DNA of 64,000 nt, taken from Rhododendron vialii. Lineage: Eukaryota > Streptophyta > Magnoliopsida > Ericales > Ericaceae. Below the pieces are notes generated by a model. The model worked only from the letters and a program-made list of their open reading frames with translations. It was not told where the DNA came from and did not search any database. Each line of letters opens with the position of its first letter. Positions within the stretch are counted from its first letter, which is position 1. This document shows, piece after piece, positions 8,973 to 49,481 of this stretch. A program made the position numbers and the translations under genes. Location: contig NC_080567.1 of the NCBI RefSeq assembly GCF_030253575.1, forward strand, positions 31,880,501 through 31,944,500, in the 5' to 3' direction.

Positions 8973-9040
<68 letters not shown>

Positions 9041-15686: not shown

Positions 15687-15723
<37 letters not shown>

Positions 15724-20551: not shown

Positions 20552-20700
20552 ACCCTCTTCTCTCTCTCCTCTGGCTTTATTACTATCTTTCCTGCAATCT
20601 TAGCGAGGTATTCCCTTCTGGGTTTTCCCCAAATCTCTCATTTCAGATCCAAGATTTGATTTTTGGTGATTTGGAATTCGGTTGTGATTGGTTTGATACG

Positions 20701-23129: not shown

Positions 23130-23831
23130 TGTTTACACCATAATTTAGTATTTAGTATATTATAATCGATTGGGTCAGAATGTTACACGTGTCAACGCAT
23201 TTTAGACCGATTGATATAATGCAAATGCAATATGAAGCCTGTTAAGGAAAATGGACTGATCAAACGGTTGATATTCGACTGGACACGTGTCAGAATTTTG
23301 TATCACATGCGGATCGTGAAGTCAGACGGTTAATGCAAGCAGGCAGTTGAAATAATTACAACGTTGGAAACATGTGAGATCATGGAGAAGTAACCGCCTC
23401 ATGCAGATAGTGGAGCAAGAATAGGGAGCATGGAGCCAACTAATTCAAATCGAAGGAGGGAAGTCCGTATGATTTGAATTTCAAGTCGACAACAGCCTAT
23501 AAATACAAGAAAGGAAGATATTTAGAGCCCCCAATCAATCGCCCAAAGGCTTCTACTTTTATCTGTACTTTACATTTCTTGCTCTAGGAGTAGCTTGTAA
23601 TTTAACCGTCTGTTCGATTGTGTTCACATAGTCGATTTGACTTCTACACCGAGGGATAATAAAGTCCATTTTGTTGTTCTTCTTCCATTTCCATTCACTT
23701 CATTAAGTTTGCTTCCAGAGAAGTCCTGAAATACGGCAAGGAACCAAACTCCACCACCACAAACACCCACATTTCCAGCACACTTAGCAATCTCTAGTCG
23801 ATTAGTCGACTATCAGTAAAATAGACAAACA
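23130..23831 (+). repeat. 5' LTR
   Basis: 702 bp starting TG and ending CA. A TATA box (TATAAATA, 23498-23505) and an AATAAA at 23658-23663 mark the likely U3/R/U5 order. It seems identical to the 3' LTR, 12834 bases downstream. Confidence 0.97.
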
Positions 23832-23832
23832 A

Positions 23833-23852
23833 TTTTGGCGCTAGAAGGAGGG
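23833..23852 (+). other. Primer-binding site
   Basis: Immediately after the LTR, TTTTGGCGCTAGAAGGAGGG has the TGG start expected for pairing with a tRNA 3' CCA. I cannot assign the tRNA with confidence. Confidence 0.7.
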
Positions 23853-23874
23853 CATCATTACTAATTTGGAAGTA

Positions 23875-26800
23875 ATGGCACCAGCGACAAGGAAACAAGG
23901 CGACCGACCTGCAGAGCCTCAGAATGAAGGCCTAGAAAGCCAAACTGACGTGGCGCATCCTGAACAAAGGGTGCCAGAAAATAGCCAAGGAAATGGCTTG
24001 AGCGCACCAACAAATATACAGGGCCTTTCCAGGCAGTTGGCACAAGTTTTGTCTAATCCAGAAGACGAAGCGGCACAGGAATTGATTACCCTATTGAGAA
24101 GGGTAGTTACGCCCCCATCTGTCATAGATGTGGATGCACATGGTGTAGTACATGAGCAACTGCAAACTGGAGATCTGCCTAGACAGTCACCTCAACAGGT
24201 ATATACAAATCCAGCATTCGATTCAAATATGAATGTGCACAGTCGACCGTTTGTTGAAGCAACTGCTCTACGGTCCACAATCAAGCCAACTAGTTTTTAC
24301 CAGAGTGTCCCATCTATATATGAAGTTGGTAACAGTAGTGGAAATGGTCAGAATCATGGTTTAAATTCTAGTCAAAGTCCTCAGGCTGGTTTCACAGGAG
24401 TCCGTGTCATGAATAATGGTCAACACATATACAATGCCGCACAAACTCTGCCAAATCATGGCAGTTATACTTATCATACTATGCCAGTAGGACCGAATAA
24501 TGGAAATAGTGGTCAGTACGTTCACAATGTGCCAAACATTGGCAATGGGAACGGTCAGAATGGCCCTCTTGCACAACCTTATGTACCAAATGTCCTTAGA
24601 GCCCCAGATCCCATGAATATTAATAGGGCACAAATATTAGAAGTCATCCAAGATGTGTACGGACCAGGGCTACGCAGGGTGGAAAAACCCATGTTTAGAA
24701 AGCCTTACCCACATTGGGTTGACAATGTTCCTTTGCCAAGAGGGTATAAATTGCCTGAGCTTTCATTTTTTAGTGGTACAGAAAATCAGTCGACAATTGA
24801 ACATGTAGGACGGTTTTGTCTACAGTTAGGAGAACTTGGCTCTGATGATGTTTTTAAGTTAAAATTATTCCCACATTCATTAACTAAAACAGCATTCACA
24901 TGGTTCATAAGCCTGCCTGCAAATTCTATCCATACGTGGCAAGATATGGAAGAACAATTTCATGCTCAATATTTTAGACATGAACCAGAGGTCTCAATTG
25001 CCGACTTGGCTAAGTTAAAGCAGAAGCCAAATGAAACGGCAGAACAGTTTTTAACTAGATTTAAGAGATTAAGAAATCAATGTCATTGTAATGTGCCAGA
25101 GACCGAGATAGTTCGAATAGCTCAAGATGGTCTCGAGTTTAATTTTAAAAAGCAGTTTAATGGATCTAATTTCAAAGATCTGTTTGAGCTCTCCATGAGG
25201 GCATCTCAGTTTGAAGCTATTTTACAAGAAGAAGAGCTTTTGAGGAACACGTCTCTAGGAACATATTACCAAGATGTGGAAGGTGATATTGAGATTGATG
25301 TAGCGCAAGTCATTGGAAAGACCCCTATAATTTGTGACACTTTGGTTAAAACAGAAAAACCAATGAATATGCCTTCATCTCAACCCAATAGGCGTGGGGG
25401 GCAAGCAAATTATAGACAATATTCGTTTGATTTGGCACAAGCTGACCAAATATTTGATGAATTGTTGAAACAAAAATTTGTTACTTTGAGTCCTGGGCAT
25501 ATTATTCCTTCTGATAAGGATAGAAAAGGAAAAGAATATTGTAAATGGCACAATTCATTTAGGCATAATACTAACAACTGTGTTACATTCCGAAATTGTG
25601 TGCAGGACTTGATCCAGAAGGGACTGTTGCAGTATGCTAAAGGCGACAAGGATCCCATGGGAATTGAATCCAATCCTTTTCCCAAGATTGAAGTGAACAT
25701 GGTGACGGCCGGCCTAGCCAAAAGGCTAGGTTCCAATGTGACGAAACAAACGCAGGGGGAGGAGGATCACATGCAGACTGAAGAAGAGTCAGCAAAGTCT
25801 CATACCTCTAGATTCCCAAACGACTACCTCTGCATTAGGTGTGGGCATGAAGTCCAGTATGGGGAAGCAATTATAGCAGAAAAAGATCAGAGAAGTGCAT
25901 TCTCCAAGTCCGGACTGAGGTTCAACACAATGGGAGGAAATGACCTTCAAATTTATGTGGGAGCCAAACTGATTTATGAAGGTATAGATCCGGGGCTCTT
26001 TAACAGAATAGAGTCAGAGCATTGCTATGGGCCAGATGATGGACCATTTTTATTCAGGGGACATCCAGTCGTGCCTGCAAGGCCTGGGGTGCCTTCTTGC
26101 CAAGATCTTGAGGCGGCGGGGTACCAATTTCCTAATCAGAGGAGATACCCTAGTCAAAGGGGTGTTGGTTTCAGAAGAGATACTGGACCACGAGGTAGAG
26201 GACCTTATGGACGTGGATGGCACCAACCTAGGATGGTAATGCCACCCAATAATGATCACGAGGAATGGAGCACGCTTAGCCATCCAAAGTTCCCAGCAGA
26301 GGGTTGGTACACTAAGGTATCCAGTTCACAGAAAAGAAGGCTTCAAAGGAAGTTTGCAGCCAGGGCTTATGGTGACCCATGGGACCATGTGTTCGAACCA
26401 AGAGAGAAAGTGGAACCATCAAAGGTTCCAAACATGGTATGGACCCGGGATCAAGGAGAAACTAGTGGCCCAAAGCAGATAATTCAAAAGCATGGGGGGC
26501 AAGAGAGTAGTGCTACAGATCCTCCCCAGTCGACTGCCCAACTGAAGGGTAAAAAAGAATTGAAGCAGAGCTTAAAGAAGAAAATGGAGGAATTCCAGAA
26601 GCTCATGGAGGCAGATGATGATGATGATCTCTTTGACGAAGGGTCAGAACAGGAAGACCTGATCAAAGATGCGTCACCGTCTCCACAGAGATCTGCAACA
26701 TTTGGAGAAAGCCTGGCCGCAATCCAATTCGGGTCAGTACCTATAAACTACCAGTGTAATATGATTTTAGTTCTGCCTAAGCAGTTTAAGGCAAAACCAA

Positions 26801-27585
26801 ATCAGCCAATGAATTTGGCAGGCGATGTTGAGGATAATACCCAATCGATTGTAAAAATAATGGACAAAGAGAAGCATCCTCAGTCACAGCCCATTAATGT
26901 TGAGACGGATAAACATGGAAACAGTGTTGTAGTTCTTAGAACACCTGATGATGCCTCAATAAGGCATTTAAGACCACTGTATATTAAACTGCATATGAAT
27001 GGCCAACCTATCTCGAAAGTGTTGGTCGACAATGGGGCAGTAGTTAATATTTTACCTGCTCGAATGCTCAAAGTTTTGAACAAAACCAATGATGACCTGA
27101 TCCCAACAGAGGTTACAGTTGGCAATTTCGCTGGAGGGTGTTCTCCTGCTAAGGGGGTCATATCCTTACAACTACAGATTGGAAATAGGAAGATGAATGC
27201 AACGTTTTTCGTAATCGATTCTTCATCTAATTACAATGCCTTACTGGGCAGAGATTGGATCCATATAAATAGTTGTGTGCCGTCTTCTTTGCATCAGGCC
27301 TTGATCTTTCTAAAGCAAGAAGAAGCAGCGGGAATGGAGGTCTTTTGGGCAGACCGACATCCATTCAAAGCAGAGACTAACAACGTAGAAGCAGATCTCT
27401 ACAACGAACATTTGTGGCCAACAAGAATAGAAGACTCAGAAGTCAGATCTAATCAAGTTGGAGTAACTGAGAGCCAATTCCTCAAATACATCAAGGAAGG
27501 GTTCCAGGAGCTGAGCAAAGATTTTATCAGGCCTAACATTATTTCAAGGCCTGCCAAGATTGATCAACAAGTTTTTAATGTTTAG
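23875..27585 (+). CDS. Retrotransposon Gag-protease polyprotein
   Basis: 1236 codons from ATG 23875 (MAPATRKQGDRPAEP); the frame extends a few codons upstream without an ATG. A Gln/Asn-rich N-terminus is followed by the retrotransposon gag domain at about residues 290-410 ('LPELSFFSGTENQSTIEHV', 'WQDMEEQFHAQYF', 'ETAEQFLTRFKRLRNQC'). A basic, Gly/Arg-rich stretch comes at about 760-790, then an acidic patch (DDDDDLFDEGSEQED). The aspartic protease has 'VLVDNGAVVNILPARML' at about 1050 (D-N-G in place of D-S/T-G) and 'LLGRDWIH' at about 1123. Gag packages the RNA and forms particles; protease matures the polyproteins. The last codons overlap the start of pol in another frame. Confidence 0.96.
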   Translation: MAPATRKQGDRPAEPQNEGLESQTDVAHPEQRVPENSQGNGLSAPTNIQGLSRQLAQVLSNPEDEAAQELITLLRRVVTPPSVIDVDAHGVVHEQLQTGDLPRQSPQQVYTNPAFDSNMNVHSRPFVEATALRSTIKPTSFYQSVPSIYEVGNSSGNGQNHGLNSSQSPQAGFTGVRVMNNGQHIYNAAQTLPNHGSYTYHTMPVGPNNGNSGQYVHNVPNIGNGNGQNGPLAQPYVPNVLRAPDPMNINRAQILEVIQDVYGPGLRRVEKPMFRKPYPHWVDNVPLPRGYKLPELSFFSGTENQSTIEHVGRFCLQLGELGSDDVFKLKLFPHSLTKTAFTWFISLPANSIHTWQDMEEQFHAQYFRHEPEVSIADLAKLKQKPNETAEQFLTRFKRLRNQCHCNVPETEIVRIAQDGLEFNFKKQFNGSNFKDLFELSMRASQFEAILQEEELLRNTSLGTYYQDVEGDIEIDVAQVIGKTPIICDTLVKTEKPMNMPSSQPNRRGGQANYRQYSFDLAQADQIFDELLKQKFVTLSPGHIIPSDKDRKGKEYCKWHNSFRHNTNNCVTFRNCVQDLIQKGLLQYAKGDKDPMGIESNPFPKIEVNMVTAGLAKRLGSNVTKQTQGEEDHMQTEEESAKSHTSRFPNDYLCIRCGHEVQYGEAIIAEKDQRSAFSKSGLRFNTMGGNDLQIYVGAKLIYEGIDPGLFNRIESEHCYGPDDGPFLFRGHPVVPARPGVPSCQDLEAAGYQFPNQRRYPSQRGVGFRRDTGPRGRGPYGRGWHQPRMVMPPNNDHEEWSTLSHPKFPAEGWYTKVSSSQKRRLQRKFAARAYGDPWDHVFEPREKVEPSKVPNMVWTRDQGETSGPKQIIQKHGGQESSATDPPQSTAQLKGKKELKQSLKKKMEEFQKLMEADDDDDLFDEGSEQEDLIKDASPSPQRSATFGESLAAIQFGSVPINYQCNMILVLPKQFKAKPNQPMNLAGDVEDNTQSIVKIMDKEKHPQSQPINVETDKHGNSVVVLRTPDDASIRHLRPLYIKLHMNGQPISKVLVDNGAVVNILPARMLKVLNKTNDDLIPTEVTVGNFAGGCSPAKGVISLQLQIGNRKMNATFFVIDSSSNYNALLGRDWIHINSCVPSSLHQALIFLKQEEAAGMEVFWADRHPFKAETNNVEADLYNEHLWPTRIEDSEVRSNQVGVTESQFLKYIKEGFQELSKDFIRPNIISRPAKIDQQVFNV

Positions 27586-30500
27586 AAACCTATTGAACAC
27601 AGGGTGTGAAGATTTGGCTACTGTGAAAGCCACTTTTAAAAGGTTGTTTTCTTTTCTTGTTGACAGAAAATTGCAGGCAGATGAGCCTATTTCTTGTAAT
27701 TGGGCTGAGTGTGTTTTTGATGATAGCCCTCTAAGCATGAAAGAGTTAGGATTAGCAGACCTGAAACCAGCACCAGCTAAGCTAGATGATGACGGGGCCC
27801 AAGTAAAGGATCCCACAGAAGAAGTCAACTTGGGAACTCCAGAAGATCCTAAGATCACATATGTAAATGCTGCTTTGCCTATTGAAATAAAGGAAAAGTT
27901 TAAGTACTTGTTGCGTAAATTTAAAGATTGTTTTGCTTGGAGTTATGATGAAATGCCAGGTTTAGATAGGTCTTTAGTTGAACACAAAATACCTATAAAG
28001 GAGAACTACGTACCTTTTAAACAGGCACCAAGGAGAATGAAGGATGATGTCTTACCTCAAGTCAAAAAAGAAATGGAACGTTTATTTGACGCAAAGTTTA
28101 TTCGACCGGTCAAGTATGTTGAATGGGTCTCAAATGTTGTCCCAGTATTAAAGAAAAATGGGAAAGTTAGAGTATGCGTTGATTTTAGAGATCTTAATAC
28201 CGCATCACCAAAGGATCAATATCCAATGCCTGTTGCTGATTTGCTAGTCGATGCAACAGTAGGGTACCAAATGCTGTCCTTCATGGATGGTAATGCTGGT
28301 TATAATCAAATATATATAACTGAAGAAGATACGCATAAAACAGCGTTTAGATGTCCTGGATACATAGGGACGTTTGAATGGGTGGTCATGGCTTTCGGAT
28401 TGAAAAATGCAGGTGCAACTTATCAAAGAGTTATGAATTTAATTTTCCATGATTTTTTGCATAAATTCTTGGAAGTTTATATAGACGATGTAGTTGTAAA
28501 ATCAAATTCAGTTGACGAGCACCTACATCATCTTGAACAGACTCTGGAAAGGATGAGGCGTTACAATCTGAAAATGAATCCTTTGAAATGTGCATTTGGT
28601 GTCACCGCAGGAAACTTTTTAGGATTCTTGGTGCATCAAAAAGGGATTGAGATTGATAAAACTAAAGCTGATGCTATTTTGAAAGCACAGGCACCAACCA
28701 ATAAAGAAGAACTTCAGCAGTTCTTGGGAAAGATTAATTTCCTTCGAAGATTTATTGCCAATCTATCTGGAAAGACAATGGCATTCTCCCCATTATTAAA
28801 ATTGAAGTCAGAAAAAGATTTCAGATGGGAACAAGAGCATCAGAAAGCTTTTGATACTTTAAAGCAATCTTTGGTGACACCTCCTGTTCTGATGCCTCCA
28901 ATAAATGGAAAACCATTGAAGTTGTACATATCGGCAACGCACCATTCGATTGCAAGTCTGTTAGCTCAGGATAATGAACAAGGCCGAGAGCAATCAATTT
29001 ACTACCTAAGTAGAAGGTTAAATGATTGTGAAAGTAGGTATTCATGTGTGGAAAAGATTTGTTTGGCATTATATTTTTCAGCAATTAAATTAAGGCATTA
29101 CCTTTTGCCAGCTAGAGTAATGATCATTTCCCAAACAGATATAATAAAATATATCCTGTCTAGACCCATTTTGAGAGGGAGACAGGGGAAATGGATTTTA
29201 GCGCTAGTAGAGTATGACTTTGAATATGTGCCTCAAAAGGCAGTAAAAGGACAAGCTTTGGCAGATTTCTTAGCTGAGCATCCAAATCTACCTTTGGAAG
29301 AGGATACTTTTGAGGTACATCTTTTGGAGCTTAAACCTTGGCAACTGTCTTTTGATGGTTCAAAAACAGATAATGGAGTTGGGGCAGGTGTTGTTCTGAC
29401 ATCTCCAAAAGGAGAAATGTTTCAATTTTCTTTTCAACTCGATGAAAGTAGAATACTAACAAATAATCAAGCAGAGTATGAGGCCTTGATCATAGGCTTG
29501 GAAATAGCAAAAGATTTGAATATACGATATTTGAAAGTTTCTGGGGACTCACAATTGGTCATCCGACAAATTACAGGACATTATAAGTGCAATCACCCCT
29601 TATTGAGCCTGCAACTAGAAAAGGTTCAGTGTCTTGTCCAAAACTTTGATGAAATATGCTTTCAGCACATCTTGAGACTTCAAAATAGCGAGGCCAATCA
29701 AATGGCTCAGACAGCTTCAGGAGTTAAGATTCCTGAAGGAGACACGGAGAAAATAATTAGAATCCAAAAACGATATCTACCTTTTTCATTGGAAAGGGAA
29801 AAAGATCGATTGGATGTGTTTGTAATCGATATTTCAGACGATTGGATGATTCCAATAAAGAATTACCTTCTAAATCCTAATGAAAAGGTGGAAAGGACTG
29901 TCAAGTGCAGGTCCATCAATTATGTTTTATTAGAGCAGGATTTGTATAGAAAAACGTCTGATGGTCTATTATTGTTGTGCGTTGACAAGGACCAATCAAT
30001 GAGAATTATGGGAGAAGTCCATGAAGGGACTTGTGGTGCTCATCAAGCTGGTGATAAAATGAGGTGGTTAATTAAAAGACACGGATATTATTGGCCAAAT
30101 ATTCGAGCTGACTGTATTCAGTATGCTAAAGGTTGCCAGCAATGCCAAAAGCATGGACCAATCCAAAGGATACCAGCTCATCAGTTGCAGTCGATTGTTA
30201 AACCTTGGCCGTTCAGAGGTTGGGCAATCGATATGATAGGGGAAATTCACCCAGCATCTTCGTTACAGCACCAATTTGTTATAGTGGCGACTGATTATTT
30301 TACAAAATGGACGGAGGCAATACCTTTGAAAGGTGTTTCACAGAAACAAGTGATTGATTTTATTGAGGAATATCTTTTATGTAGATTTGGAATTCCTGAA
30401 ACCATCACTGTTGATCAGGCGTCTATATTCAATGGTAGAGAAGTTGTCCAGTATGCACAAAAATATGGAATACAGATTTTGAATTCAACTCCATATTATG

Positions 30501-31105
30501 CCCAAGCAAACGGGCAAGTCGAATCGACTAACAAAATTATAAAGAATACCTTGGCAAAGGTAATCAATGATAACCCAAGAGAGTGGCATGATCTGTTGCC
30601 CAGAGTTTTATGGGCATATAGAACATCACAAAGGGAGAGTACTAAGGTAACACCATTCGAGTTAGTTTACGGGCACGCAGCGGTATTGCCAGTCGAAATT
30701 AACGTTCAATCTTTAAGGGTGACACGTCATTACGACCCAGATTTACAGTACGAAGAAGCAATGTTTTTGGATATCGATGGGCTAGAAGGGAAAAGATTAC
30801 ACGCCCTGAATCAGATTCAAGCCCAAAAGAAAAGAGTTGAAAGGGCTTATAACAAAAGAGTAAAACAAAAGTCTTTTGCAGTTGGAGACTTAGTGTGGAA
30901 AACAATCCTCCCAATCGATTCAAGAAAGAAGAAAGGGAAATTTGGAAAATGGTCTCCAAACTGGGAAGGTCCTTTCCGTATTGCCCAGATTTTACGAGGG
31001 GGTGCATATCATTTGACATCAATCGAAGGGGTTCTACACGAAAGAACCATTAATGGTAAATATTTGAAACATTATTTTCCGTCTATGTGGGAGAGCATTA
31101 GTTAA
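27578..31105 (+). CDS. Retrotransposon Pol: RT, dual RNase H, integrase
   Basis: About 1175 codons from ATG 27578, in the +1 frame relative to gag-protease and overlapping its stop. Counted from the upstream frame opening at 27560, reverse transcriptase has 'VRVCVDFRDLN' at about 200 and the active site 'YIDDVVVKS' at about 306. A Ty3-type RNase H follows at about 450 but has lost its first catalytic Asp ('LYISATHHSIASLLA'). A second RNase H starts at about 595 ('LSFDGSKTDNGVGAGVV', 'NNQAEYEALIIGLE', 'VSGDSQLVI'). Integrase has the HHCC zinc finger at about 823-865 and the DDE residues in 'AIDMIGEI', 'TVDQASIFNG' and 'QANGQVESTNK'. No chromodomain is seen; the protein ends MWESIS. Expression relative to gag may need +1 frameshift, reinitiation or splicing. 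Confidence 0.96.
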   Translation: MFRNLLNTGCEDLATVKATFKRLFSFLVDRKLQADEPISCNWAECVFDDSPLSMKELGLADLKPAPAKLDDDGAQVKDPTEEVNLGTPEDPKITYVNAALPIEIKEKFKYLLRKFKDCFAWSYDEMPGLDRSLVEHKIPIKENYVPFKQAPRRMKDDVLPQVKKEMERLFDAKFIRPVKYVEWVSNVVPVLKKNGKVRVCVDFRDLNTASPKDQYPMPVADLLVDATVGYQMLSFMDGNAGYNQIYITEEDTHKTAFRCPGYIGTFEWVVMAFGLKNAGATYQRVMNLIFHDFLHKFLEVYIDDVVVKSNSVDEHLHHLEQTLERMRRYNLKMNPLKCAFGVTAGNFLGFLVHQKGIEIDKTKADAILKAQAPTNKEELQQFLGKINFLRRFIANLSGKTMAFSPLLKLKSEKDFRWEQEHQKAFDTLKQSLVTPPVLMPPINGKPLKLYISATHHSIASLLAQDNEQGREQSIYYLSRRLNDCESRYSCVEKICLALYFSAIKLRHYLLPARVMIISQTDIIKYILSRPILRGRQGKWILALVEYDFEYVPQKAVKGQALADFLAEHPNLPLEEDTFEVHLLELKPWQLSFDGSKTDNGVGAGVVLTSPKGEMFQFSFQLDESRILTNNQAEYEALIIGLEIAKDLNIRYLKVSGDSQLVIRQITGHYKCNHPLLSLQLEKVQCLVQNFDEICFQHILRLQNSEANQMAQTASGVKIPEGDTEKIIRIQKRYLPFSLEREKDRLDVFVIDISDDWMIPIKNYLLNPNEKVERTVKCRSINYVLLEQDLYRKTSDGLLLLCVDKDQSMRIMGEVHEGTCGAHQAGDKMRWLIKRHGYYWPNIRADCIQYAKGCQQCQKHGPIQRIPAHQLQSIVKPWPFRGWAIDMIGEIHPASSLQHQFVIVATDYFTKWTEAIPLKGVSQKQVIDFIEEYLLCRFGIPETITVDQASIFNGREVVQYAQKYGIQILNSTPYYAQANGQVESTNKIIKNTLAKVINDNPREWHDLLPRVLWAYRTSQRESTKVTPFELVYGHAAVLPVEINVQSLRVTRHYDPDLQYEEAMFLDIDGLEGKRLHALNQIQAQKKRVERAYNKRVKQKSFAVGDLVWKTILPIDSRKKKGKFGKWSPNWEGPFRIAQILRGGAYHLTSIEGVLHERTINGKYLKHYFPSMWESIS

Positions 31106-31329
31106 GACTAACTTTCTTTTCATTTCATAGTCAAGGGCTGCCCATGGGTAGGACAGCATTACAAAAGGCCAGTCAGACAAAAACAAAAGATCCCAAGAAG
31201 GATCTGACAAAAAGAAAACAAAAGGGAACTCAAAGCGGGAACCCAAAAGAAAAAACCCTACAAAGAAAAAGATCCCAAGTGAGATCTAAAAAAAAAAAAA
31301 CACACATCAGGACCCCCACAAAGAGAAGG

Positions 31330-31635
31330 CTATTTCTTAGGCCATTCTCTCCACTGGCCAGATGTGCCAGCCATGGAGGACCTGATGTCAGCAGGGTCGA
31401 CCGGAGAAGACTTGTAGTCGATGGTGTCCCAGTTGGCCACCACAAGTTTGAGAGCGGACTCCATCTTCTCCAGCCGAAGCGCCATGCCCTCCACTCGATC
31501 GTGGATGGCCTGGATCCTCCGCTTACACTCATTTTGATCTTCCATGAGGGCCCAGGAAAGCTCAGTGGCCAGTTGTTTTATGTGAGCAGGAGTGATTTGT
31601 GTGGAGAGGGGAGTAGAAGAAATATTGGAAGCCAT
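31330..31635 (-). CDS. Small antisense ORF in the retrotransposon (101 aa)
   Basis: ATG at 31635, 101 codons. It starts MASNISSTPLSTQITPAH, has a central amphipathic helix/coiled-coil segment ('CKRRIQAIHDRVEGMALRLE') and ends GQWREWPKK. No known domain is recognised. It lies opposite to pol, 225 bases after the pol stop. A good TATA box is 42 bases upstream of the ATG on the same strand, so it may be its own transcription unit. The overlapping plus-strand ORF at 31144-31701 is its shadow. Confidence 0.6.
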   Translation of the reverse strand: MASNISSTPLSTQITPAHIKQLATELSWALMEDQNECKRRIQAIHDRVEGMALRLEKMESALKLVVANWDTIDYKSSPVDPADIRSSMAGTSGQWREWPKK

Positions 31636-31676
31636 AATGTAGAAACACAGGTGTTTGAACTTCTACTCAGTGGTGA

Positions 31677-31684
31677 TATTTATA
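31677..31684 (-). promoter_or_regulatory. TATA box for the 101-aa antisense ORF
   Basis: Minus strand TATAAATA in the context GTCTATAAATATCACC, about 42 bases before the ATG at 31635. Confidence 0.55.
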
Positions 31685-32272
31685 GACCCAGGAAAATCTA
31701 AAGACGTGGGTCGTGGACAGTTATCCCGAGGTGAATTAAGAGACGTGACAGCTAATGGGGTTAGTGGGCTCTCAATGGCCGTTTCCCAAGTAAGGCGGCT
31801 GAATTTTTGCAGAACGGCATCATGTGTTGTACCTAAACCATCAGTAATTACTGTGCGGATTCCCAAAAAGTGGAAGGGAAGCGTCATCATGATTATGACG
31901 TAGTTCTGCCATAATTATAGGCGCCCACAGTCCGGATAAATAGGGATCAAGGGTTTTGATCCTGTGGCATCACGTGGTTAAAGTAAGGTGTTAGCCAATT
32001 ATGTGAAGTTTTTACTCAGCTTGGGCATGTATGTGAATCTGGTATATGTGAGTAAAATTTGCATAAAGGTTAAAGAAATGGTTCCAAACAAAGAATTTGG
32101 AGTTTTCTAACAGGGAATGTGAGAAAGGCCATGGAAGGTCTAATTTTCATTCTAATTGCCATTCTCATTTCTGGCATACCACCTGTTGATAAAAACAATC
32201 AACAAACAAAAGTACTTATAGTTTGTACTAACAGGATTAGTCAATTGGCTATAAAACTGAAGTCAACCAAAA

Positions 32273-35200
32273 TCATTCATGAAAGAAGGCAGACTTAAAA
32301 GCCTCCCACTTAACGACAAGTTCATCACATTTAATTCTGTTTCTCTGCAAATCTTCACGAGCAGCAGAGACATGAACTGAGACTCCTTTGCCTTCCTCTG
32401 CTAGGTGTTTGAAATCTTTATCGAGTTGGTTCGCTGTTACCAGAAGGTTTTTCTTTTCAGCCTGCAGTTGACCCAATCGATATACCAACTCCTTCTCTTC
32501 TTGATCAATTGCCAAAAGCCTCGACTTCAAAGTCGAAGCGTCAGCATGCATAGTCGATAACTTCACTGTTAAGTTGGAAAGGTTACCGATTAAATCCTGC
32601 TTCTGACTTATTTCTTGTTGGTAATATCGGAAGAGACTAATGTTGTCATTCAGAGATGATGCGTAGTTTTCCAAGATAATTTGCTCTCTAAGGGGGAAAA
32701 CATGCTTTTGAGATAAGGATTCAACGCAAGCACTGAACTCCGTAGACTTCACTGTCATCAATTCCTCAAAAGGAAGCTTTAGGAAGTCAAAGAAGACTTG
32801 AATTTCTTTCTGAGTCTCCGCACTGAGTTGAAGAAAGAAGAAAGAACTGTTGGATTCTGAAATCTCAGTAAGGGAACGAAAGATTTGGGAAGTCGATTTT
32901 ATCTCTTCCATTAATTGGTCTAAAGAATCACTTGAGGACTTGACATGAGCAGAATCCTCAACACCCACAGGATTTGTTGCAGTCTTGTTCACTGAACGAG
33001 GAGATGTAGTTAAGGCAAGAGCCCTCGAAATGTTTGCGGGGGTCACACTTGTTGGAAATAAGACTTGGTTCCCAGAGGGATTACCAGAAGGGCTAGAGGC
33101 AACATCCTCTGCGCCTTGCCCACCTTCTTGAGTAGGACCAATTTGGACAACAGGTTGGACAACAGGGGCAATCTGAGCTGGATCCTCTGCTGGTCCCTTC
33201 TTTTCCATTGTCTTTTCATTCATTGATGGGGAAACTTCTAGAGAAGGCACGTCCGCCATCTGAGGGGAAGCTGTTTCTTCCCTACCATCACTTTGTTGAT
33301 TCAGATCGATCTTCTGAATTATTGGAGCAACAGTGACGTCCTTCATTGGCACAGCTTTGACTGAGTCTGATGCAATTTGATTTGTTGTAGTATCAAGTTG
33401 TCGAATGGCTGGTACACCAAGTTCAACACCATCTGGCCTCAGAGCTGAACCCTCACCAACCTGCACAAGAGGACTGTCATCCTGCAGTAAAGGGTTTTCT
33501 TGATACAGCAATTGTTCCTGAAATCCTGGCAACCAATCAGCTTGATCCAAAGGATCTGATACTGCTGTGGACTCGTATTGATCGATTGCCAATTCAGTAT
33601 CGACTGTCTCTCCTACTGAGAAGGAGGATTTTTGAATTTGTGAAGATTGTGAGGAATTTCCTTCTTCCTCTTCAAAAGCATCTACAATTCTGGTCTCTTT
33701 ACCCTTCTGTAAAAGACAGCAAATGGGAAAATGAGAATAGAAAGACTCGTGAAAAGTACGAACGAAATCAATAAGGGTAACAAAGATAAGAGTGTACCTT
33801 CAAAGCCAACCCTTTGTCACTAGAACTTTGCTTTTTGGTGAGCTTTCTTGTTGGTTGCTTTGTGGGAGTAGATGTTTCACTGACCTGTTTCTTAGGTCTA
33901 CCAGTGGAAGGACTTCTGGAAACCTTTTGGCTCACACCTGATGTGATCTTGAGAGTTCGTGTCCGTGGCCTGGTTTCAGAGTCCTTAATCGATTCAGCTT
34001 TCCTTTTCCTGGTATTCCTACTGGGCACAGAGGATATGGGAACTGCTCCTGTATGAGGCACAATGGCCTTGGAGGGTTCATCAGGCAATCGAGCTGTTAT
34101 CTCTGCTAAAGAAACAATATGATAAAGATTAGTAAAGTATGACTAATTGAACTAAAAACCAATGAATAAGCTGTGCTTACCAGCCTTATCTTGAAGGAAT
34201 TTGTATTCAGGATCAAGCCTGTATAGGCAGTCTGAAAGTGAAGCACTGAAATAGAGGGCCCTCATAGTCGACCACCATTCATCAAAAGCAGGCAGGGTCG
34301 CTTTATTGATCTTGAAGTCAATAAACTGAAAGGCTTTGACACGTTGTTGAAAGTTGCTAACCATCAGAGATATCATCTGTGAGTCTTTGGCCTTAATGGT
34401 TGGCCTACTGGAGGCCATCTCAATGATGTTTGGGTGAACAAAAGGCATTGGAATGCCTTGTGCGAGGCCAAACTGCCTAGCATATTGACAAGGAGAGTAA
34501 TTCTCGAAACCACAATTCCCAAAAGGAGTGTTATTCAGGGCAAAGCCCACTGGGATAAGTCTTGGAAGAAGAATGCTGGCCCAAAATAACCGTTTGGACT
34601 GAGTCATTTTCTCTACAAGTTGGGGAGAAGCTGGTGGAATGTCCTCAAAGCATGGCTTCAGTCTTTCTGATGCAAATTCGAATTTATCGAATGGACAGAA
34701 CATAGGCCAATTCTTTTGGTTATTTTCATAAAAAAAGGTGAAATACCTTTGAAAGGAGGATTCCTCTATTTGAGTGTGGAAGCCTAACAAATATTCAGCA
34801 TAACTACGGCATGTTTGCAATGCCTCATCTGACCGAAGGGGGTTCTCCAGTTTAGGTTTTATTTGAGGGAAGTATGCATATAACCAAGCTTGAAAGATCC
34901 AGAAAGGACCACCACAAGAGTCCGCTATCTTTTTATCAACAAAGGTAAAAAGGCCTTTATACAGAGATCCTAAAACAAAAGGGGCAAGGGCCAACCTCTT
35001 TACTTGGGCCATACAAACGGCTAGGTTAAGGTATTCTTTGGTAACCCTAAGCCCAGGGACTGCCATAAGAAATCGACAAATCCAGAAAAGGTAAAATGCA
35101 ACCTTCTCATGAAAGCAAGGCGCTGAGGCTTTGGCTTTAAAGTGAGTCTTAAGCCATTTCGAATAGCTAACCCCAGACGATGGAACAACAAATGGGGGAT

Positions 35201-35798
35201 CATATGGATCAGGAGAAAGCAGAGCATTTACCTCACGGCCTAACGAAGGAAGGCCAGTTAAATGAGAGATGTCCAGGACTGTCGGAGATAGCAAGCCACA
35301 ATGAAGAATTAGGGTATTGGATGATTTGGACCAAAAACACGCTGCAGCAGCCAAGAGTTCAGAATTCATGTCCAAGGGATATTGTGAGAGCTCAATTGTC
35401 TCACGGATTCCCATTGTTTTCCAATCCTCGAAAAGGAACTTCATCATGCGCCTTACCCAATCTACCCATCCCATTTCAACGGTGTAAGGCCAAGAACGAA
35501 GGCAGGTGTTCTTACCCCAGCCTAACCATTCCAGCGACGGAAGCTGAAGGAGAAGTGGATCACGTTCCCCCACTGGGTAGACTTCTGGAAAGCCATCCGG
35601 GAGAACTGATGAAAAAATTGGACCCAATATGCAATGAGAACTAACATTATCGTCAGGAATCAGAACTTGAGTCTTCTGGTTTTGGCCAATCCCGTTTCGG
35701 TACGATTCAGGGAATCGGAAGGAATCCTCCGTCACTGACTCGGTGGCCGGATCTTCAACTGGGTCGCTGACGATCTGTAGTTTGGATTTCGGTGCCAT
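32273..35798 (-). CDS. Antisense plant-mobile-domain (PMD) protein, three exons
   Basis: Read on the minus strand: exon 1 35798-34181, exon 2 34105-33798, exon 3 33706-32273. The introns (75 and 91 bases) have GT-AG ends and leave one frame of 1119 codons. Exon 1 (starts MAPKSKLQIVSDPVEDP) carries a plant mobile domain (PF10536-like, residues about 110-520): 'SELLAAAACFWSKSSNTLIL', 'CGLLSPTVLDISHLTGLPSL'. Exon 2 is basic, with RKRK and GRPKK motifs (nuclear signal / AT-hook-like). Exon 3 is acidic then coiled-coil over about the last 150 residues, ending SAFFHE. PMD proteins are known both in transposons and as host nuclear factors (MAIN/MAIL family). Here the gene is cargo of the retrotransposon, on the strand opposite to gag-pol, with its own TATA box. 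Its role for the element is unknown; nuclear or anti-silencing action is only a guess. Confidence 0.88.
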
Positions 35799-35890
35799 TT
35801 GGGTTCGGAAGCTGTTCTAGGGTTCGAGAGCTGTTTCAACGTTCTGCGAGAAAAAGCACGATTCGTGCCCTAAATTTGAAGTACTCTGCC

Positions 35891-35898
35891 TTATATAG
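35891..35898 (-). promoter_or_regulatory. TATA box of the antisense PMD gene
   Basis: Minus-strand CTATATAA in the context CACCTATATAAGGCAG, 93 bases upstream of the ATG at 35798 and 66 bases inside the element from the 3' LTR. Spacing fits a plant core promoter with a leader of about 60 bases. Confidence 0.65.
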
Positions 35899-35949
35899 GT
35901 GGTGATTTGCTAAGCGAAATATTTACCAAAGTTAATATTTAACTCAGGT

Positions 35950-35963
35950 AAATAGGGGGGCAT
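35950..35963 (+). other. Polypurine tract
   Basis: The purine-rich stretch AAATAGGGGGGCAT abuts the 3' LTR, the expected primer position for plus-strand synthesis. Confidence 0.75.
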
Positions 35964-36665
35964 TGTTTACACCATAATTTAGTATTTAGTATATTATAAT
36001 CGATTGGGTCAGAATGTTACACGTGTCAACGCATTTTAGACCGATTGATATAATGCAAATGCAATATGAAGCCTGTTAAGGAAAATGGACTGATCAAACG
36101 GTTGATATTCGACTGGACACGTGTCAGAATTTTGTATCACATGCGGATCGTGAAGTCAGACGGTTAATGCAAGCAGGCAGTTGAAATAATTACAACGTTG
36201 GAAACATGTGAGATCATGGAGAAGTAACCGCCTCATGCAGATAGTGGAGCAAGAATAGGGAGCATGGAGCCAACTAATTCAAATCGAAGGAGGGAAGTCC
36301 GTATGATTTGAATTTCAAGTCGACAACAGCCTATAAATACAAGAAAGGAAGATATTTAGAGCCCCCAATCAATCGCCCAAAGGCTTCTACTTTTATCTGT
36401 ACTTTACATTTCTTGCTCTAGGAGTAGCTTGTAATTTAACCGTCTGTTCGATTGTGTTCACATAGTCGATTTGACTTCTACACCGAGGGATAATAAAGTC
36501 CATTTTGTTGTTCTTCTTCCATTTCCATTCACTTCATTAAGTTTGCTTCCAGAGAAGTCCTGAAATACGGCAAGGAACCAAACTCCACCACCACAAACAC
36601 CCACATTTCCAGCACACTTAGCAATCTCTAGTCGATTAGTCGACTATCAGTAAAATAGACAAACA
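35964..36665 (+). repeat. 3' LTR
   Basis: 702 bp, apparently identical to the 5' LTR. TATA equivalent at 36332-36339 and AATAAA at 36492-36497. It is followed by the TSD GTATT at 36666-36670. Confidence 0.97.
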
Positions 36666-37282: not shown

Positions 37283-39898
37283 CAGGGTATGGAAAATCGG
37301 CCTTAATTAGGTGAACGAGTTTTGGGAACAAAGAGGAAAACAACCCTCCACAAACATGAAAGGAAGTTGGGTTTCAGGCTTAAATAGAGGAAACTGTGGA
37401 GCCAATTTTAGCATACTTCGCAAATTTTACTTGGAAATGATAAGAAAAACAGGTCTTGGTCTTGTAGTCTGGTTGTTTCTTTCCCTTGTATAGTTGGCAT
37501 TGCAATTTAGATAGAATTGCCTGTTTTGCTTGGTTATGATGTGTGGCTATATTTTCTCCTGTATTGTTGGCATTGCAAAGAAGATCTTCACATCATGTTA
37601 AATTCAGTGGCAAAATTTCCTCCATCTGCTTTTCTCCCGATATCACCTTCTTTCATTTTGAGCTTTATTTAGAAAACCAGCTTAAAAACACGTGTCAAAC
37701 AGGGTCGTCCAATGTTTGGTACCGAGTAAAAAGTCAAAACAGGTCAATAACATTGGTTATAAAATTGCATGGAAAGAAGGCCAAATGACAGATAAAGTTG
37801 GCATTCCTGGGGAAAAAAAAATATTGCATCAGTTGTAACGGAAAACATAAGGTGGAAATTAGACATATGCTTATATTTATGGGTAGAACTCTTTAGAGCT
37901 AGTTGTCCTTCAAACTAATTCTGGAAGAAAATTGCTCTTATCATCTTACATAACTGTTTCGAACAGTTGGATATGCATGACTTATACGAATGGTTGAATC
38001 CTTCATTCTTGTTGGCGTTGTCTAAACTTCCGATGAGGACTCAGCTCAGCCAAACGTGGGTCAGGGTGGTTATGCAATCTTTTTTCTCCTGTAATTTCTT
38101 TTAGTATTCTAGTTTTCTGTGGGATGGACTCTAATATCAAGTTAACCATTACTTTATTGTCGCGTTATTGCAATGTGAAATATTGATTGTTACATCTATT
38201 GTCCTTTCGCACATAAGCCACCGGCAGATACTCGTTAGGATTGCAATTCATGTTTCTTCTCGGTACCTTTTCCTCATTACTTCATACTTTTTTACGGTCG
38301 GTTGCATGAGATAATAAGACAAATTGGAACAATCCTAAAGGGAAAATGTCTACTAGCACAGCAGCATTGGGTTTAAAACAGACACAATCCCCCAAAACAC
38401 TTGTTTGTATGATAGTCTGGCTATCTAATAAAACTAGCCATGTGACCATAGTTGGAGAATTGTTTCTGATAGACTTGTAAGTGACCTTCTTGGCTACAAT
38501 TCAACCAATATCTATCTACTCATTGTGGTGTGATCGGTTTTCCAAGTGTCCTCATACCATCGATGCGAGACTAGTATCTAATGAGGAGTTGGTGGTTAGT
38601 AATTTAATTTGGTATTTGAGTCCGGTTCCTACCTCAGAAATCATAATATTTGCACGTATTTGGCCTACTTACCAAAGAAAGTTTGAACTTGTAAATGAGT
38701 TGCTGGTCAAGAATTAAACGACCCAATCTGAGGGTTTATGGTGGTGTTCTTTCGAAAGAGATCTGCGTGATTTCCCCAACTCTTTACTCACCTTGGTTTG
38801 TCACTCCAGAAACCTATGAACAACACAACCTAGGATTGTTAGTAGTACTTCTTGGAATAGTTGCTTCAACCACTTCAATTTTTTCGTGGGTATAATAACA
38901 GTTTGACAAACATAACGTGAAGAAAATTCTTGAGGCTTCTTTTATGTTTTTGTCCATATCGATTTTCTTCCTCTGGATGGGCGTTGTTTGTCTAGTTGTT
39001 TTTTTCCCTTAATGGATTATCAGTTCGGCTTAGTATGATTGCAGCCGTATGTCCCATTTGATGTAAATTGTATACATGTATTCTTCTTGTATCGCTTGTA
39101 ATAAAAAAATGGGTTAAGCTACCTTATTGCTCCTAATCCTACATACCCCTCCAAACACTTAATTTTTACCCTTATTTCAAATAATGATTCGATACATTAA
39201 TTAATCTCGCAAGCCTTGTAGAGAACAACACTATATGTGTGGAAAATCATGTTGATCGAACATGGTAGCTAGATACGAAAAACAGATCGGATTTTCTTTT
39301 AATGAATGACAAATATGATTTTGAACTTAAACCATGTAATTAAAATGAATCCTTCCTGTACCTACTGATACCCGATTGAGTTCATTGTGTGAAATTCAAT
39401 TGCGATGGGGCCTTTAACTGGGCTTCCAAGATCGCGGCTATTGGAGTTATTGTGAGGAATTCTCACGGTGAAATCTTGGAGGTAAATTATGGAAGAATCA
39501 TAACCATGGAATTCTCTCTCAGGAATTTGATGTCAAATTGTGTTTGGATCTCAAACTTGTAAGAAGATATAGTGGAAGAAAGATGCATTCAAAGGCAAAG
39601 TAATTTTTGCTTCTCAATGGTTTTTCTTTCTTGGACGATGCAAAATATAGCAAAAATAGAACATACTAATAGTATAACAAAAGAAAAAGACAGAAAGCCA
39701 CATCAAATCGTCCGAAGAACCAAGCATTCAAAGGTAAAGTCATTTTTGTTTTTCATTTTCATTTTTCTTTCTTGAACGATGAAAAAAATAACGGAAAGAG
39801 AAAACACATAATGTAGCAAAAGAAAAGGACAGAAAGCAACATCAAATCCTCCGAAGAACCAAGCATGAAATGAAAGTTGAAAGGGTAGATGAAATATA
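37283..39898. other. Duplicated spacer between cell-wall genes
   Basis: No coding gene is supported. The segment 38395-38900 is paralogous to 40650-41030 and 43600-43740 (shared CCATGTGACCATAGTTGG, GACTTGTAAGT, TCATTGTGGTGTGATC). The segment 39240-39380 is paralogous to 42580-42660. Each is a remnant of the tandem unit that carries the PELPK-like genes. The middle part (about 37800-38390) looks unique. Confidence 0.6.
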
Positions 39899-40435
39899 TC
39901 AAGGCTTCAGAGTTGGGATCTTCAGCGGCTCTGGCAAACCAGGGAAGGCAGGCAATTCAGGTAACTTCGGAATTTCCACTTTAGGAATCTCAGGCTGCTC
40001 CGGAAAACTTGGGATGTGGGGCACTTCAACTTTAGGAATCTCCTGCGGCTCTGGAAAACTGGGGATGTTCGGCTCTGGAAAACTTGGGATGTGAGGCACT
40101 TCAATTTTAGGAACCTCATGCGGCTCTCCAAAACTTGGGACATAGGGCCCTTTAACTCTAGGAACCTCCCACGGCTCAGGAAAACTTGGGATGTGTGGCA
40201 CTGGAAAACTAGGGATTTGTGGCTCTGGAAAACTTGGGATGTGGGGCACTTCAACTTTAGGGACCTCCGGTAGCTCCGGAACCGTCGGAAAATGAGGAAG
40301 TGACGATGGAATATCAGGCAGAGTTATATCAAGAAGATGCCTAGCCTCAGCCACCATTGTGTTGCCACTCATGGATGCCAAAGTGATGAGCAAAAGAGTT
40401 AAGACAGAGGCTGGAGATTGGATATGAAAAGCCAT
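39899..40435 (-). CDS. PELPK1-like secreted proline-rich cell-wall protein
   Basis: ATG at 40435, 178 codons. A signal peptide of about 31 residues (MAFHIQSPASVLTLLLITLA...VAEA) is followed by RHLL and then repeats of Pro-Glu-(Leu/Ile/Val)-Pro-(Lys/Glu) type. These alternate with 'VEVPHIPSFPEP' units (about six HIPSFPEP-like blocks). This architecture matches Arabidopsis PELPK1, a hydroxyproline-poor cell-wall protein that affects growth rate. A TATA box (TATAAAAA) at 40491-40498 lies about 60 bases upstream. The unit duplicated: the copy at 43117 has fewer repeats. The overlapping frames are artefacts of the repeat. Confidence 0.85.
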   Translation of the reverse strand: MAFHIQSPASVLTLLLITLASMSGNTMVAEARHLLDITLPDIPSSLPHFPTVPELPEVPKVEVPHIPSFPEPQIPSFPVPHIPSFPEPWEVPRVKGPYVPSFGEPHEVPKIEVPHIPSFPEPNIPSFPEPQEIPKVEVPHIPSFPEQPEIPKVEIPKLPELPAFPGLPEPLKIPTLKP

Positions 40436-41249
40436 ATTGGGAGAAAAAAGGGTACAAATTTGGGCATGATTGGGTTATGATGTTTATGGGTTTTTATAGT
40501 TTAGGGAAGAGGGCCAAAAGGGTAATGGCCTGATAGCAGATTTAAAGGGTTGGGGTTGGTTTGAAGATTTTTGACTTGTTAGTTCAACTTCTCATCTATT
40601 ATTATGGAAATTACACTAGTCCACAATTTCTTTACTTATTAAATAACTCGACTATCAAATTAAGATAGCCATGTCACCATAGTTGGAGAATAGTTGCTTA
40701 TAGACTTGTAAGTAACCTTCTTGGCTAGAAATAAAACCCATATTTATCAACTCATTGTGGTGTGATCAAATTTTCAAGTGTCCTGATACCATCATGTTCA
40801 GACTAGTATCTAATGAGGAATTGGTGGTAAGTAATTTAACGTAGTATTTGAGTCCGGTTCCTACCTCAGTATTAGGGTATTTGCAAGTTTTTGGCCTACT
40901 TACGAGAGAAATTAAGTTTTACTATAGTACTAGTTCTTTTAGAAGAATTCGACATATTTTTTGTTGTGCATCTAGTTAATCTTGGAATAGTTGCTTCAAC
41001 AACCTAAGACTTTTCCTGGTTATAGCAACTGTTTGACAAACATAACGTGAAGAAATTTTGTATGCCTTCTTATGGCTCATTGTCATAGCCTCTCCTTTTA
41101 ACAACAATATTTGGAACTGAAAACAGGAACCACATTAATAAATCATTTGAGAAAACAATGTCTTCTCTTGAATCTAGTCCAACTATTACAAGAAACTGAA
41201 CCAAAAAACTCAACCAAATGTAACATCATCTCAAGACCCCGAAATCAAT
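40436..41249. other. Promoter and paralogous spacer of the 39899 gene
   Basis: 40440-40620 is the promoter region, closely similar to 43417-43600. 40650-41030 repeats the 38395-38900 block. 40950-41045 is the intact counterpart of the retrotransposon insertion site. Confidence 0.6.
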
Positions 41250-41825
41250 GCCCATTTTTTGGGGCCGGCCAATGCGGCATTTGAAGTCATGGACATGTCC
41301 TGCAATGGTAGCAGAACCGGCTTAACCAGGATTTGGTCACTAGAGTTGCACGTTCCAATGGGTATCTACTTGGGTTGTAAATTACATGCGCGGAAAATTG
41401 TTAAGAAAAACATTAATGAAGGGCAAAGTTATATAATTAGGCTTTGTCGTCAGCTTTATTTTTTGTGGAAAAAGGAATAAAAACTTTTTTCAACTCTCTT
41501 GTGGTATTCAAATTATAGCCTTTGATATAGTATTATTTTTCTGATCCAAACCGCTTTTATAAATTGCAATTCTTACATTATTTATATAAGATATAACATT
41601 GGTTTTTTGAGACCAAGATATAACATTGTTCGCATACCAATAAGTACTCAATCGAATTACGTTAGTGTATAAAAAACAATTGTGTTTGAAAGTAAGGGTG
41701 GCACCTATGCCCCCCTTGTCCGCCTCGTTGGGAGAGGAAGCCGGCGAGTCCCTCTTGTTTCATGAATGCTTGACAATGAGATACCGGTGAATGAATAAAC
41801 CGATGATCCACATTTTGCAGGAACC
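41250..41825 (-). pseudogene. Broken paralogue of the 37004 gene
   Basis: 41735-41825 matches the signal-peptide coding end of the 37004 gene (AATGCTTGACAATGAGA, CATTTTGCAGGAA.CCATCAG). 41262-41325 matches its Pro/Met segment (GTCATGGACATGTCCTGCAA versus GTCATGGGCATGGCCCGCAA). About 370 bases of unrelated AT-rich sequence lie between them. The start codon and frame are lost. Confidence 0.7.
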
Positions 41826-49448: not shown

Positions 49449-49481
49449 TTTCTCTCTCTAAAAGACGCACACACTCACTCA

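Follow-up and report, generated by a model that had tools for sequence, protein, structure and literature searches.

A probable spliced antisense gene for a plant mobile domain protein in a Tat-clade retrotransposon of Rhododendron vialii

Plant LTR retrotransposons have long been known to contain antisense open reading frames (ORFs). The locus analyzed here raises the question of whether such ORFs can be the exons of one gene, and what its product might do for the element. The window is a stretch of 64,000 nt from Rhododendron vialii (NC_080567.1, 31,880,501-31,944,500, forward strand), to which all coordinates refer (Table 1). Our reading, to which we assign a probability of about 0.6 as a compromise between a very probable gene and a less certain role, is that the element carries an accessory spliced antisense gene with a nuclear role in its own expression.

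Table 1. Features of the retrotransposon and its antisense reading frames in the window
Feature	Position	Strand	Description
5' LTR	23130..23831	+	702 bp, TG...CA; blastn of both ends
gag-protease ORF	23845..27585	+	stop-to-stop frame; Retrotrans_gag 7e-17
pol ORF	27515..31105	+	RT, RNase H, additional RNase H (RVT_3), integrase
Second antisense ORF	31330..31635	-	101 aa, heptad-repeat protein
Exon 3	32273..33706	-	acidic linker, C-terminal coiled coil, stop
Intron 2	33707..33797	-	91 nt, GT..AG, phase 0
Exon 2	33798..34102	-	basic segment with RKRK and RPKK, probably a nuclear localisation signal
Intron 1	34103..34180	-	78 nt, GT..AG, phase 1
Exon 1	34181..35798	-	N-terminus and plant mobile domain; PF10536, E 3.1e-36
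TATATAA box	35891..35897	-	putative promoter of the antisense gene, located outside the LTR and some 95 nt upstream of the start codon
3' LTR	35964..36665	+	702 bp

The element is an intact LTR retrotransposon at 23130-36665, with a 5-bp target site duplication (GTATT, read off the sequence together with the TG..CA LTR edges) and two LTRs that are 100% identical over 702 bp in a blastn comparison of the element ends. A PBS-like TGGCGCTAGAAGGAGGGC lies after the 5' LTR. The gag-protease ORF also has a gag-asp_proteas match that falls under the Pfam cut-off (1.7e-05), and the order of domains in pol is RVT_1 (residues 212-371), RT_RNaseH (466-567), RVT_3 (613-734), Integrase_H2C2 (824-881) and rve (899-995). 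An additional RNase H, which lies between RH and INT in angiosperm Ogre and Retand elements, is the mark of the Tat clade in the available excerpts of PMC6317226; pol encodes this domain, placing the element in the Tat clade of Ty3/gypsy. In the same excerpts, Ogre elements have gag-protease and pol ORFs that lie apart (mean 274 bp), the separating region being spliced from the sense RNA, and 57% of them have a plant mobile domain (PMD) in an extra ORF (Neumann 2019, PMC6317226). The separation is absent here, the two ORFs overlapping, and the PMD in an extra ORF is present. An antisense TRP28 ORF between pol and the 3' LTR was reported for 97% of Retand clusters (PMC11963269), and TRP28 for just 23% of Retand elements in the excerpts of PMC6317226. 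Antisense ORFs exist in our element, but they are of the PMD type, and PF04195 (TRP28) gave no match at E 0.1 in exons 1-3 or in the small antisense ORF. Mosaic recombination within pol, suggested by the contrast between tblastn identities of 68.7% and 91.8% in two portions of one copy's pol, was ruled out because base alignment gave 84-93% identity throughout, the gap resulting from a disrupted frame. No Rfam family matched in the window at gathering scores.

Three exons lie between integrase and the 3' LTR on the antisense strand, and their joined sequence is a single open frame from ATG to TGA. The initial annotation had proposed three ORFs joined in matching phase by two GT-AG introns of 75 and 91 nt, located at this place in a Tat element and encoding 1119 codons. 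The location was borne out by the pol domain order, the LTRs and the exon coordinates, and the joining, the phases and the 91-nt intron also stood, whereas intron 1 had to be revised. Its acceptors at 34106 and 34103 form a NAGNAG pair. Of 21 divergent copies (19 at 85-88% and two at 92%), 20 have a substitution and 1 has a gap at the G of acceptor 34106, which defines a 75-nt intron, while the AG at 34104-34103, which defines a 78-nt intron, is unaltered in 21/21. The 75-nt model (3360 nt, 1119 aa plus stop) was therefore rejected for the 78-nt model, which gives 1118 residues.

PF10536 matched exon 1 residues 130-509 with 125.7 bits (curated cut-off 34.9) over model positions 1-346 of 347, assigning the protein to the Plant mobile domain family. 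The basic segment has a net charge of +16 across residues 510-641, and behind the acidic linker, heptad periodicity was significant in 3 of 8 overlapping segments that jointly span residues 983-1094. Exon 3 has no Pfam domain above cut-off, a single-sequence structure model of the protein was useless (pLDDT 34.5), solved structures included no relative by sequence (best E 0.85), and six exon 1 peptide patterns had no matching DNA in viral_contigs. The TATATAA box is retained in 38 of 39 sister copies.

Conservation of the splice sites exceeds that of the introns around them. Both introns have GT and AG in 38/39 sister copies, the remaining copy being truncated. Across the 21 divergent copies, all eight splice dinucleotide columns are unchanged, compared with substitutions in 78 of the 161 other intron columns when gaps are not counted (117/161 with gaps, a figure that overstates intron change). 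The locus thus has the uninterrupted frame across joined exons and the conserved splice sites expected of a spliced antisense gene. Intron loss was found in none of the 38 copies alignable over the gene, and the spliced intron-1 junction had 0 occurrences in the genome in a search without a positive control. These results are what copying of the sense RNA alone would be expected to give, and they agree with the earlier suggestion that antisense introns survive replication.

The initial annotation had also proposed to compare dN/dS among family copies, and had named disrupted frames in all sister copies as an outcome speaking against the gene. Whole-gene dN/dS was 0.096-0.123 between the window and the 19 copies at 85-88%. 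Of 18 young copies, one of them that of the window, 14 are intact; intact genes among the divergent copies (0/21) are lacking, as expected of old insertions. Constraint was strongest in the PMD (0.053-0.078, 19 copies) and the coiled coil (0.05-0.08 in 21 copies; 0.051-0.074 in the 19), and weaker in the acidic linker (0.18-0.30 in 21 copies; 0.18-0.27 in the 19) and exon 2 (0.139-0.253 in the 19 copies; 0.39-0.46 in the two at 92%). For pol, the value was 0.056-0.069 with one sister copy compared. The antisense gene is thus about as constrained as pol and so probably functions as a component of the element, not as a passenger; the word "cargo" in the initial annotation fits its location inside the element and is too weak for its constraint.

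The control frames of exons 1 and 3 gave 0.95-2.5 on the same strand (five copies), and the opposite-strand frame with coinciding third positions was also low (0.13-0.22), its open stretches being short. For exon 2 (about 100 codons, five copies) the controls were mixed: 0.145-0.455 in the right frame, 0.24-1.70 in same-strand wrong frames and 0.17-0.50 in one opposite frame, with copy L026 showing a lower value in a wrong frame than in the right one. A frame-blind analysis of the 19 copies showed that the third-position excess tracks the exon frames, shifts phase over the 91-nt intron and fades past the stop. In the same copies, nonsynonymous and stop changes made up a far smaller share of shared variants (361 synonymous, 213 nonsynonymous, 5 stop) than of singletons (259, 362 and 27; Fisher p 2.4e-13), which indicates selection in the replicating lineage.

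Related genes occur elsewhere in the genome. Two more Rhododendron vialii families have intron-bearing antisense PMD genes, with PMDs 44% and 29% identical and pol 71% and 49% identical to those of the element. In one of these two families the antisense gene has five exons, and all eight of its splice dinucleotides persist in the two sister copies compared; for the L050-family gene, intron 2 and the later exons are without a convincing model. The PF10536 matches listed for the genome number 136, some of them long ORFs. The 101-aa antisense ORF, which is located beside the spliced gene and was absent from the initial annotation, showed dN/dS of 0.05-0.13 (21 copies) and has 78 matches in the genome. 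An overlapping sense ORF at 31102-31701 is not taken to be coding, since the periodicity over 31451-31600 matches the minus-strand ORF.

Taken together, the element very probably carries a functional spliced antisense gene, judging from its sequence and that of its copies. Transcription would start from its own TATA promoter, adjoining the inner side of the 3' LTR, and the host spliceosome would most likely remove the introns before translation into the 1118-residue protein. In the sense genomic RNA the introns would be present as reverse complements that cannot be spliced, and reverse transcription would therefore hand them on intact. The protein would most likely enter the nucleus by its basic segment, associate with itself through the coiled coil, and act as a chromatin-associated dimer that keeps the element's own copies expressed, in the arena of the host PMD silencing proteins MAIN and MAIL1. 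That the product is such a regulator or an anti-silencing factor is a tentative proposal, somewhat short of even odds, made by analogy with host PMD proteins, which act in transposon silencing; the published PMD functions in the available text are those of host PMD-C proteins (PMC5418596, PMC7156037).

The same gene might instead serve another nuclear step, for instance by exporting unspliced genomic RNA in a Rev-like manner, by bringing the pre-integration complex into the nucleus or by steering the choice of integration site. The basic segment and coiled coil would equally fit an RNA- or DNA-binding adaptor, accessory life-cycle roles have been proposed for antisense ORFs (PMC7264820), and a Cer1 accessory protein is required for genomic RNA export according to the excerpts of PMC10309623. 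We consider this alternative less likely than not. The present data contain nothing specific against it; in host proteins the PMD is tied to transcription and silencing (PMC5418596, PMC7156037, available text). Recent capture of a host gene, carried as a passenger by a single element, would explain the introns and the TATA box, and the many PF10536 matches could be of host or transposon origin. It is nonetheless improbable given the presence of the gene in 38/38 alignable copies, the pol-like constraint and the homologous genes in two families with diverged pol; an ancient capture may be compatible with all of this. Still less probable is that the transcript acts as an RNA (a dsRNA/siRNA trigger or interference), with incidental ORFs. 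Such roles have been proposed for antisense transcripts (PMC7264820), but a role of the RNA alone is contradicted by the data: it would not lead us to expect dN/dS of 0.06-0.12 in the spliced frame, a phase shift over the intron or splice sites kept above the intron background. Although long open frames can arise next to coding regions or on their opposite strand, and GT/AG pairs are frequent, chance ORFs linked by chance splice sites are refuted by the Pfam match, the selection and the splice-site data, and this explanation has a negligible probability; the third-position pattern follows the exon structure.

A bolder proposal, which we regard as doubtful, is that Tat elements carry an ancient, indispensable multi-intron antisense gene whose product is an anti-silencing PMD factor directed against the host MAIN/MAIL1 pathway. 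One reason for it to retain its introns may be that RDR6-type silencing acts poorly on spliced mRNAs (PMC7488869, available text), a link proposed here. Under this proposal, the separate antisense ORFs of Tat surveys, one with a domain and one with a coiled coil, would often be exons of one gene. Surveys by ORF length may split such genes into pieces. Antisense orientation would be a way for a retroelement to keep introns, and the locus a natural case of introns persisting through orientation. A 2020 review calls for a search for antisense and spliced transcripts (PMC7264820). The present analysis predicts the structure to the base, including exon junctions, their phases, the promoter and the stop codon, so that a loosely defined ORF becomes a gene that can be tested.

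In HTLV, the antisense gene HBZ is spliced. HTLV-type retroviruses also have their antisense gene close to the 3' LTR, and its introns survive by the same logic, only the sense RNA being reverse transcribed (PMC7264820, PMC11963269). The likeness is in layout only, the proteins being unrelated, and the HTLV antisense promoter is within the 3' LTR, whereas the TATA box here is outside it. Maize Grande gene23 has a similar layout, being antisense between pol and the 3' LTR with its own upstream promoter and a nuclear product; that product has no similarity to known proteins, in contrast to the PMD here (Gomez-Orte 2013, as summarized in PMC7264820). Retand-type elements with antisense TRP28 (PF04195) ORFs, some clusters also having an antisense Smc-domain ORF, belong to the same Tat clade and have antisense ORFs in a long pol-3'LTR region (Vicient 2025, PMC11963269). 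The LTR (702 bp), internal region (12,132 bp) and pol-3'LTR region (4,858 bp) of our element are inside the published ranges. Our ORFs differ from those in having a PMD, in lacking a TRP28 match and in making up, as exons, a single spliced gene. In the main text of PMC11963269 the terms "intron", "PMD" and "plant mobile" are absent, and "splic" occurs in its references only. PF10536 in extra ORFs is shared with PMD-containing Gypsy elements (PMC6317226; PMD-A1/A2 clades, Ikeda 2017, PMC5418596), whose extra ORFs are described, in the available excerpts, as at least 250 codons long; those excerpts mention neither exons and introns nor a test of selection or conserved splice sites. Antisense ORFs in Tat elements and PMDs in Gypsy elements are thus already known (PMC11963269, PMC6317226, PMC5418596), in line with the initial annotation; the conserved multi-intron antisense structure was not found in the literature searched. 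The host proteins MAIN and MAIL1 share the PMD with our protein (PMC5418596, PMC7156037), but in the available text they are genic PMD-C silencing factors that act with PP7L and have a standalone PMD (PMC7156037), whereas the antisense gene encodes a multi-module protein.

The antisense PMD gene lies in an intact LTR retrotransposon (Table), whose two LTRs, each 702 bp, are 100% identical; the computed alignment of 703 bp includes one flanking base that matches by chance. The element ends in TG..CA and is bordered by a target duplication, GTATT, as read from the sequence. Its neighbours are ordinary plant genes, and thus the insertion sits among genes. In addition, the region 38402-43831 is duplicated, with diverged copies, and carries a proline-rich repeat ORF (39899-40474, minus strand) that had zero matches in a Pfam search. 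A run of 34 consecutive G occurs at 15687-15720.

Table. Coding and presumed regulatory features of the element and its flanking genes (window positions)
Feature	Position	Strand	Remark
LTR retrotransposon	23130-36665		intact
gag-protease ORF	23845-27585	sense	
ORF for RT, RNase H, additional RNase H, integrase	27515-31105	sense	
Second antisense ORF	31635-31330	minus	101 residues, between pol and PMD gene
PMD gene, exon 1	35798-34181	minus	
PMD gene, exon 2	34102-33798	minus	
PMD gene, exon 3	33706-32273	minus	1118 codons open once exons are joined
TATATAA box	35897-35891		between 3' LTR and ATG
NPH3 family gene	8974-11400		ordinary plant gene flanking element
DUF7870 gene	20536-21945		ordinary plant gene flanking element
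DnaJ gene with zinc ribbon	47820-49457		ordinary plant gene flanking element

A 1599-base piece of exon 1 served as query for sister copies in the assembly, whose 13 contigs total 532.6 Mb. The search gave 93 candidates, of which 40, including the window, were scored and the other 39 taken for comparison: 17 young copies at about 99% identity or above, two at 92%, 19 at 85-88%, and L028, whose 99% identity is limited to its first 1023 bases. The two 92% and 19 85-88% copies (L026, L027, L029-L047) are the 21 divergent copies. The initial annotation had described three exons separated by introns of 75 and 91 bases. The open join and the 91-nt intron held, but the conserved form of intron 1 is 78 nt, because the AG three bases past the 75-nt acceptor was retained in 21/21 divergent copies, while the last base of that acceptor was substituted in 20 and gapped in one. 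The 75-nt form, kept in 0/21, was therefore dropped, and with it the proposed 1119 codons. If intron 1 were retained, an in-frame stop would be reached (ORF end at 34152).

The GT and AG of both introns were present in all 38 copies alignable over them, and none of the 38 had lost an intron. Consistent with this, the spliced intron-1 junction had no genome match, either for the 75-nt choice (up to 2 mismatches) or for the 78-nt choice (up to 3, a limit that would cover the exon edges of 20/21 divergent copies). These results agree with the earlier proposal that the introns survive copying. All 8 splice dinucleotide columns were unchanged among 21 copies, whereas 78 of the other 161 intron columns were substituted and 117 substituted or gapped; the chance of this is about 0.005 or 0.00003 if columns are equal, values that are only indicative for related copies. 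Over 19 copies, differences from the window reached about 15% in introns, 29% at fourfold sites, 20% in the noncoding stretch 31700-32250 and, least, 9% in the LTR. AT-richness and dropped gapped stretches may explain part of the low intron divergence; alternatively, introns 34103-34180 and 33707-33797 may be under constraint.

The predicted modules of the protein were borne out. The PF10536 profile matched residues 130-509 (E 3.1e-36), followed by a basic segment (510-641, net +16, with RKRK and RPKK) and then, from 642 to 910, by an acidic linker with a net charge of -26. Three of 8 overlapping windows, jointly covering residues 983-1094, showed heptad periodicity (shuffle p 0.001-0.0075; 0.07-0.80 in the remaining five). 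The TATATAA box is conserved in 38/39 sister copies.

The spliced frame was intact in 14/18 young copies (window counted) and 0/21 divergent copies, so frames are not broken in all sisters. L013 and L021 have one stop each, L024 a 2-base deletion, and L023 is rearranged; the divergent L043 has no premature stop and a length out of frame. We estimated dN/dS by the Nei-Gojobori method with our own script, a rough approach, after removing gapped or stop codons and excluding L023 and L028. Against the 19 copies at 85-88%, dN/dS was 0.096-0.123 for the whole gene, 0.053-0.078 for the PMD, 0.139-0.253 for the short exon 2, 0.18-0.27 for the linker and 0.051-0.074 for the coiled coil, in keeping with the gene as first proposed. 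For pol, values were 0.069 (codons 1-570) and 0.056 (codons 580-1196) in one copy of this group. As a control in five copies, the wrong same-strand frames of exons 1 and 3 gave 0.95-2.5; the opposite-strand frame with coincident third positions gave 0.13-0.22, as the geometry of shared third positions predicts. The controls were less clear-cut for exon 2, where in the five copies the right frame gave 0.145-0.455, wrong frames gave 0.24-1.70 and the coincident frame on the opposite strand gave 0.17-0.50. A model-free count of changes per 150 bases across the 19 copies showed a single phase from 35800 to 33851, mixing over the 91-nt intron, and a second phase to about 32201, beyond which it was gone; the signal was blurred in the linker (33550-33101).

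Variants found in one of the 19 copies comprised 259 synonymous, 362 nonsynonymous and 27 stop changes, against 361, 213 and 5 for those in two or more (Fisher p 2.4e-13 and 2.3e-4, variants treated as independent). Numbers were small among the young sequences (the window plus 16 copies, without L023), with 14/11/2 single and 10/6/0 shared. Since shared variants are poorer in nonsynonymous and stop changes, purifying selection operates while copies replicate and relaxes once they are inserted; the PMD gene thus serves the element. All comparisons concern related copies in one host genome.

The second antisense ORF showed heptad periodicity at residues 16-70 (p 0.0085), dN/dS of 0.05-0.13 against 21 copies, and 78 genome matches; it was full length in 16/17 young sister copies and 11/21 divergent copies. 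Positions 31411-31450 within it were nearly invariant in 12 copies, third positions included, and perhaps have a second role, possibly within the sense RNA. At the equivalent place, L050, a locus of another family, has an open frame on the antisense strand (L050:1-1257, minus strand) that runs for 419 codons or more and has no match in Pfam.

The L050 PMD gene, opposite in strand to pol (71% identity) in adjoining L051, is 44% identical over 506 residues in the PMD and 31% over 235 in the exon 3 region. Its first intron, modelled in one copy, is 79 nt (GT..AG, phase 1) and lies at the same position, after the motif LRLDPE. In L049 a PMD at 29% identity is likewise opposite to pol (49%); its model, with introns picked by eye, has four GT-AG introns of 71-91 nt (phases 1,0,0,0) and a 904-aa protein whose order, also by eye, is PMD, basic, acidic, heptad-like tail. 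Its sisters L052 and L053 (77% and 75%) keep the GT and AG of all four introns at 54-73% intron identity; both frames are disrupted, and dN/dS was 0.10 and 0.09 (two sisters, right frame only). Phase 1 is common to the first intron of all three families; for the second intron, the window and L049 agree in phase 0. Because both other families have them too, antisense intron-bearing PMD genes are old. PF10536 has at least 136 matches in this genome, counted with 117 of the 2001 first-look candidates scored; the L049 and L050 genes are two of them. Seven matches, some with stops, cluster at G000:C6:40926488-40976204, either as host genes or MULE-borne, and include the best PMD match among those listed (371 bits).

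Antisense transcription would start from the TATA box, the transcript would be spliced, and the protein would act in the nucleus. The host PMD proteins MAIN and MAIL1 take part in silencing and, with PP7L, also in gene expression (PMC5418596, PMC7156037), and anti-silencing has been speculated for PMDs captured by MULE transposons (PMC5418596). Our preferred reading, with a probability of about 0.35-0.4, is that an element-coded PMD with a nuclear signal and a self-association domain promotes expression of its own element. The main rival, a product working in export, import or integration, is in our view slightly less likely.

Extra Gypsy ORFs with PMD (PMC6317226, PMC5418596, PMC9289625) and Tat antisense ORFs (PMC7264820, PMC11963269) have already been described. 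In the main text of PMC11963269 the word 'intron' is missing and each antisense ORF is counted singly. Among the titles and abstract beginnings listed in our literature searches, none described an antisense gene with introns in a plant LTR retrotransposon; one of the papers listed, PMC12786077, contains both 'antisense' and 'intron'. Introns might also be mentioned in Gomez-Orte 2013 and Steinbauerova 2011. Our element carries its additional RNase H domain after RNase H and before integrase, a domain order that places it in the Tat clade (criterion of PMC6317226). Unlike Retand, where TRP28 (PF04195) is usual, the element yielded no TRP28 when searched. It also lacks the spaced gag/pol ORFs of Ogre, but shares with Ogre the PMD, reported most often there (PMC6317226).
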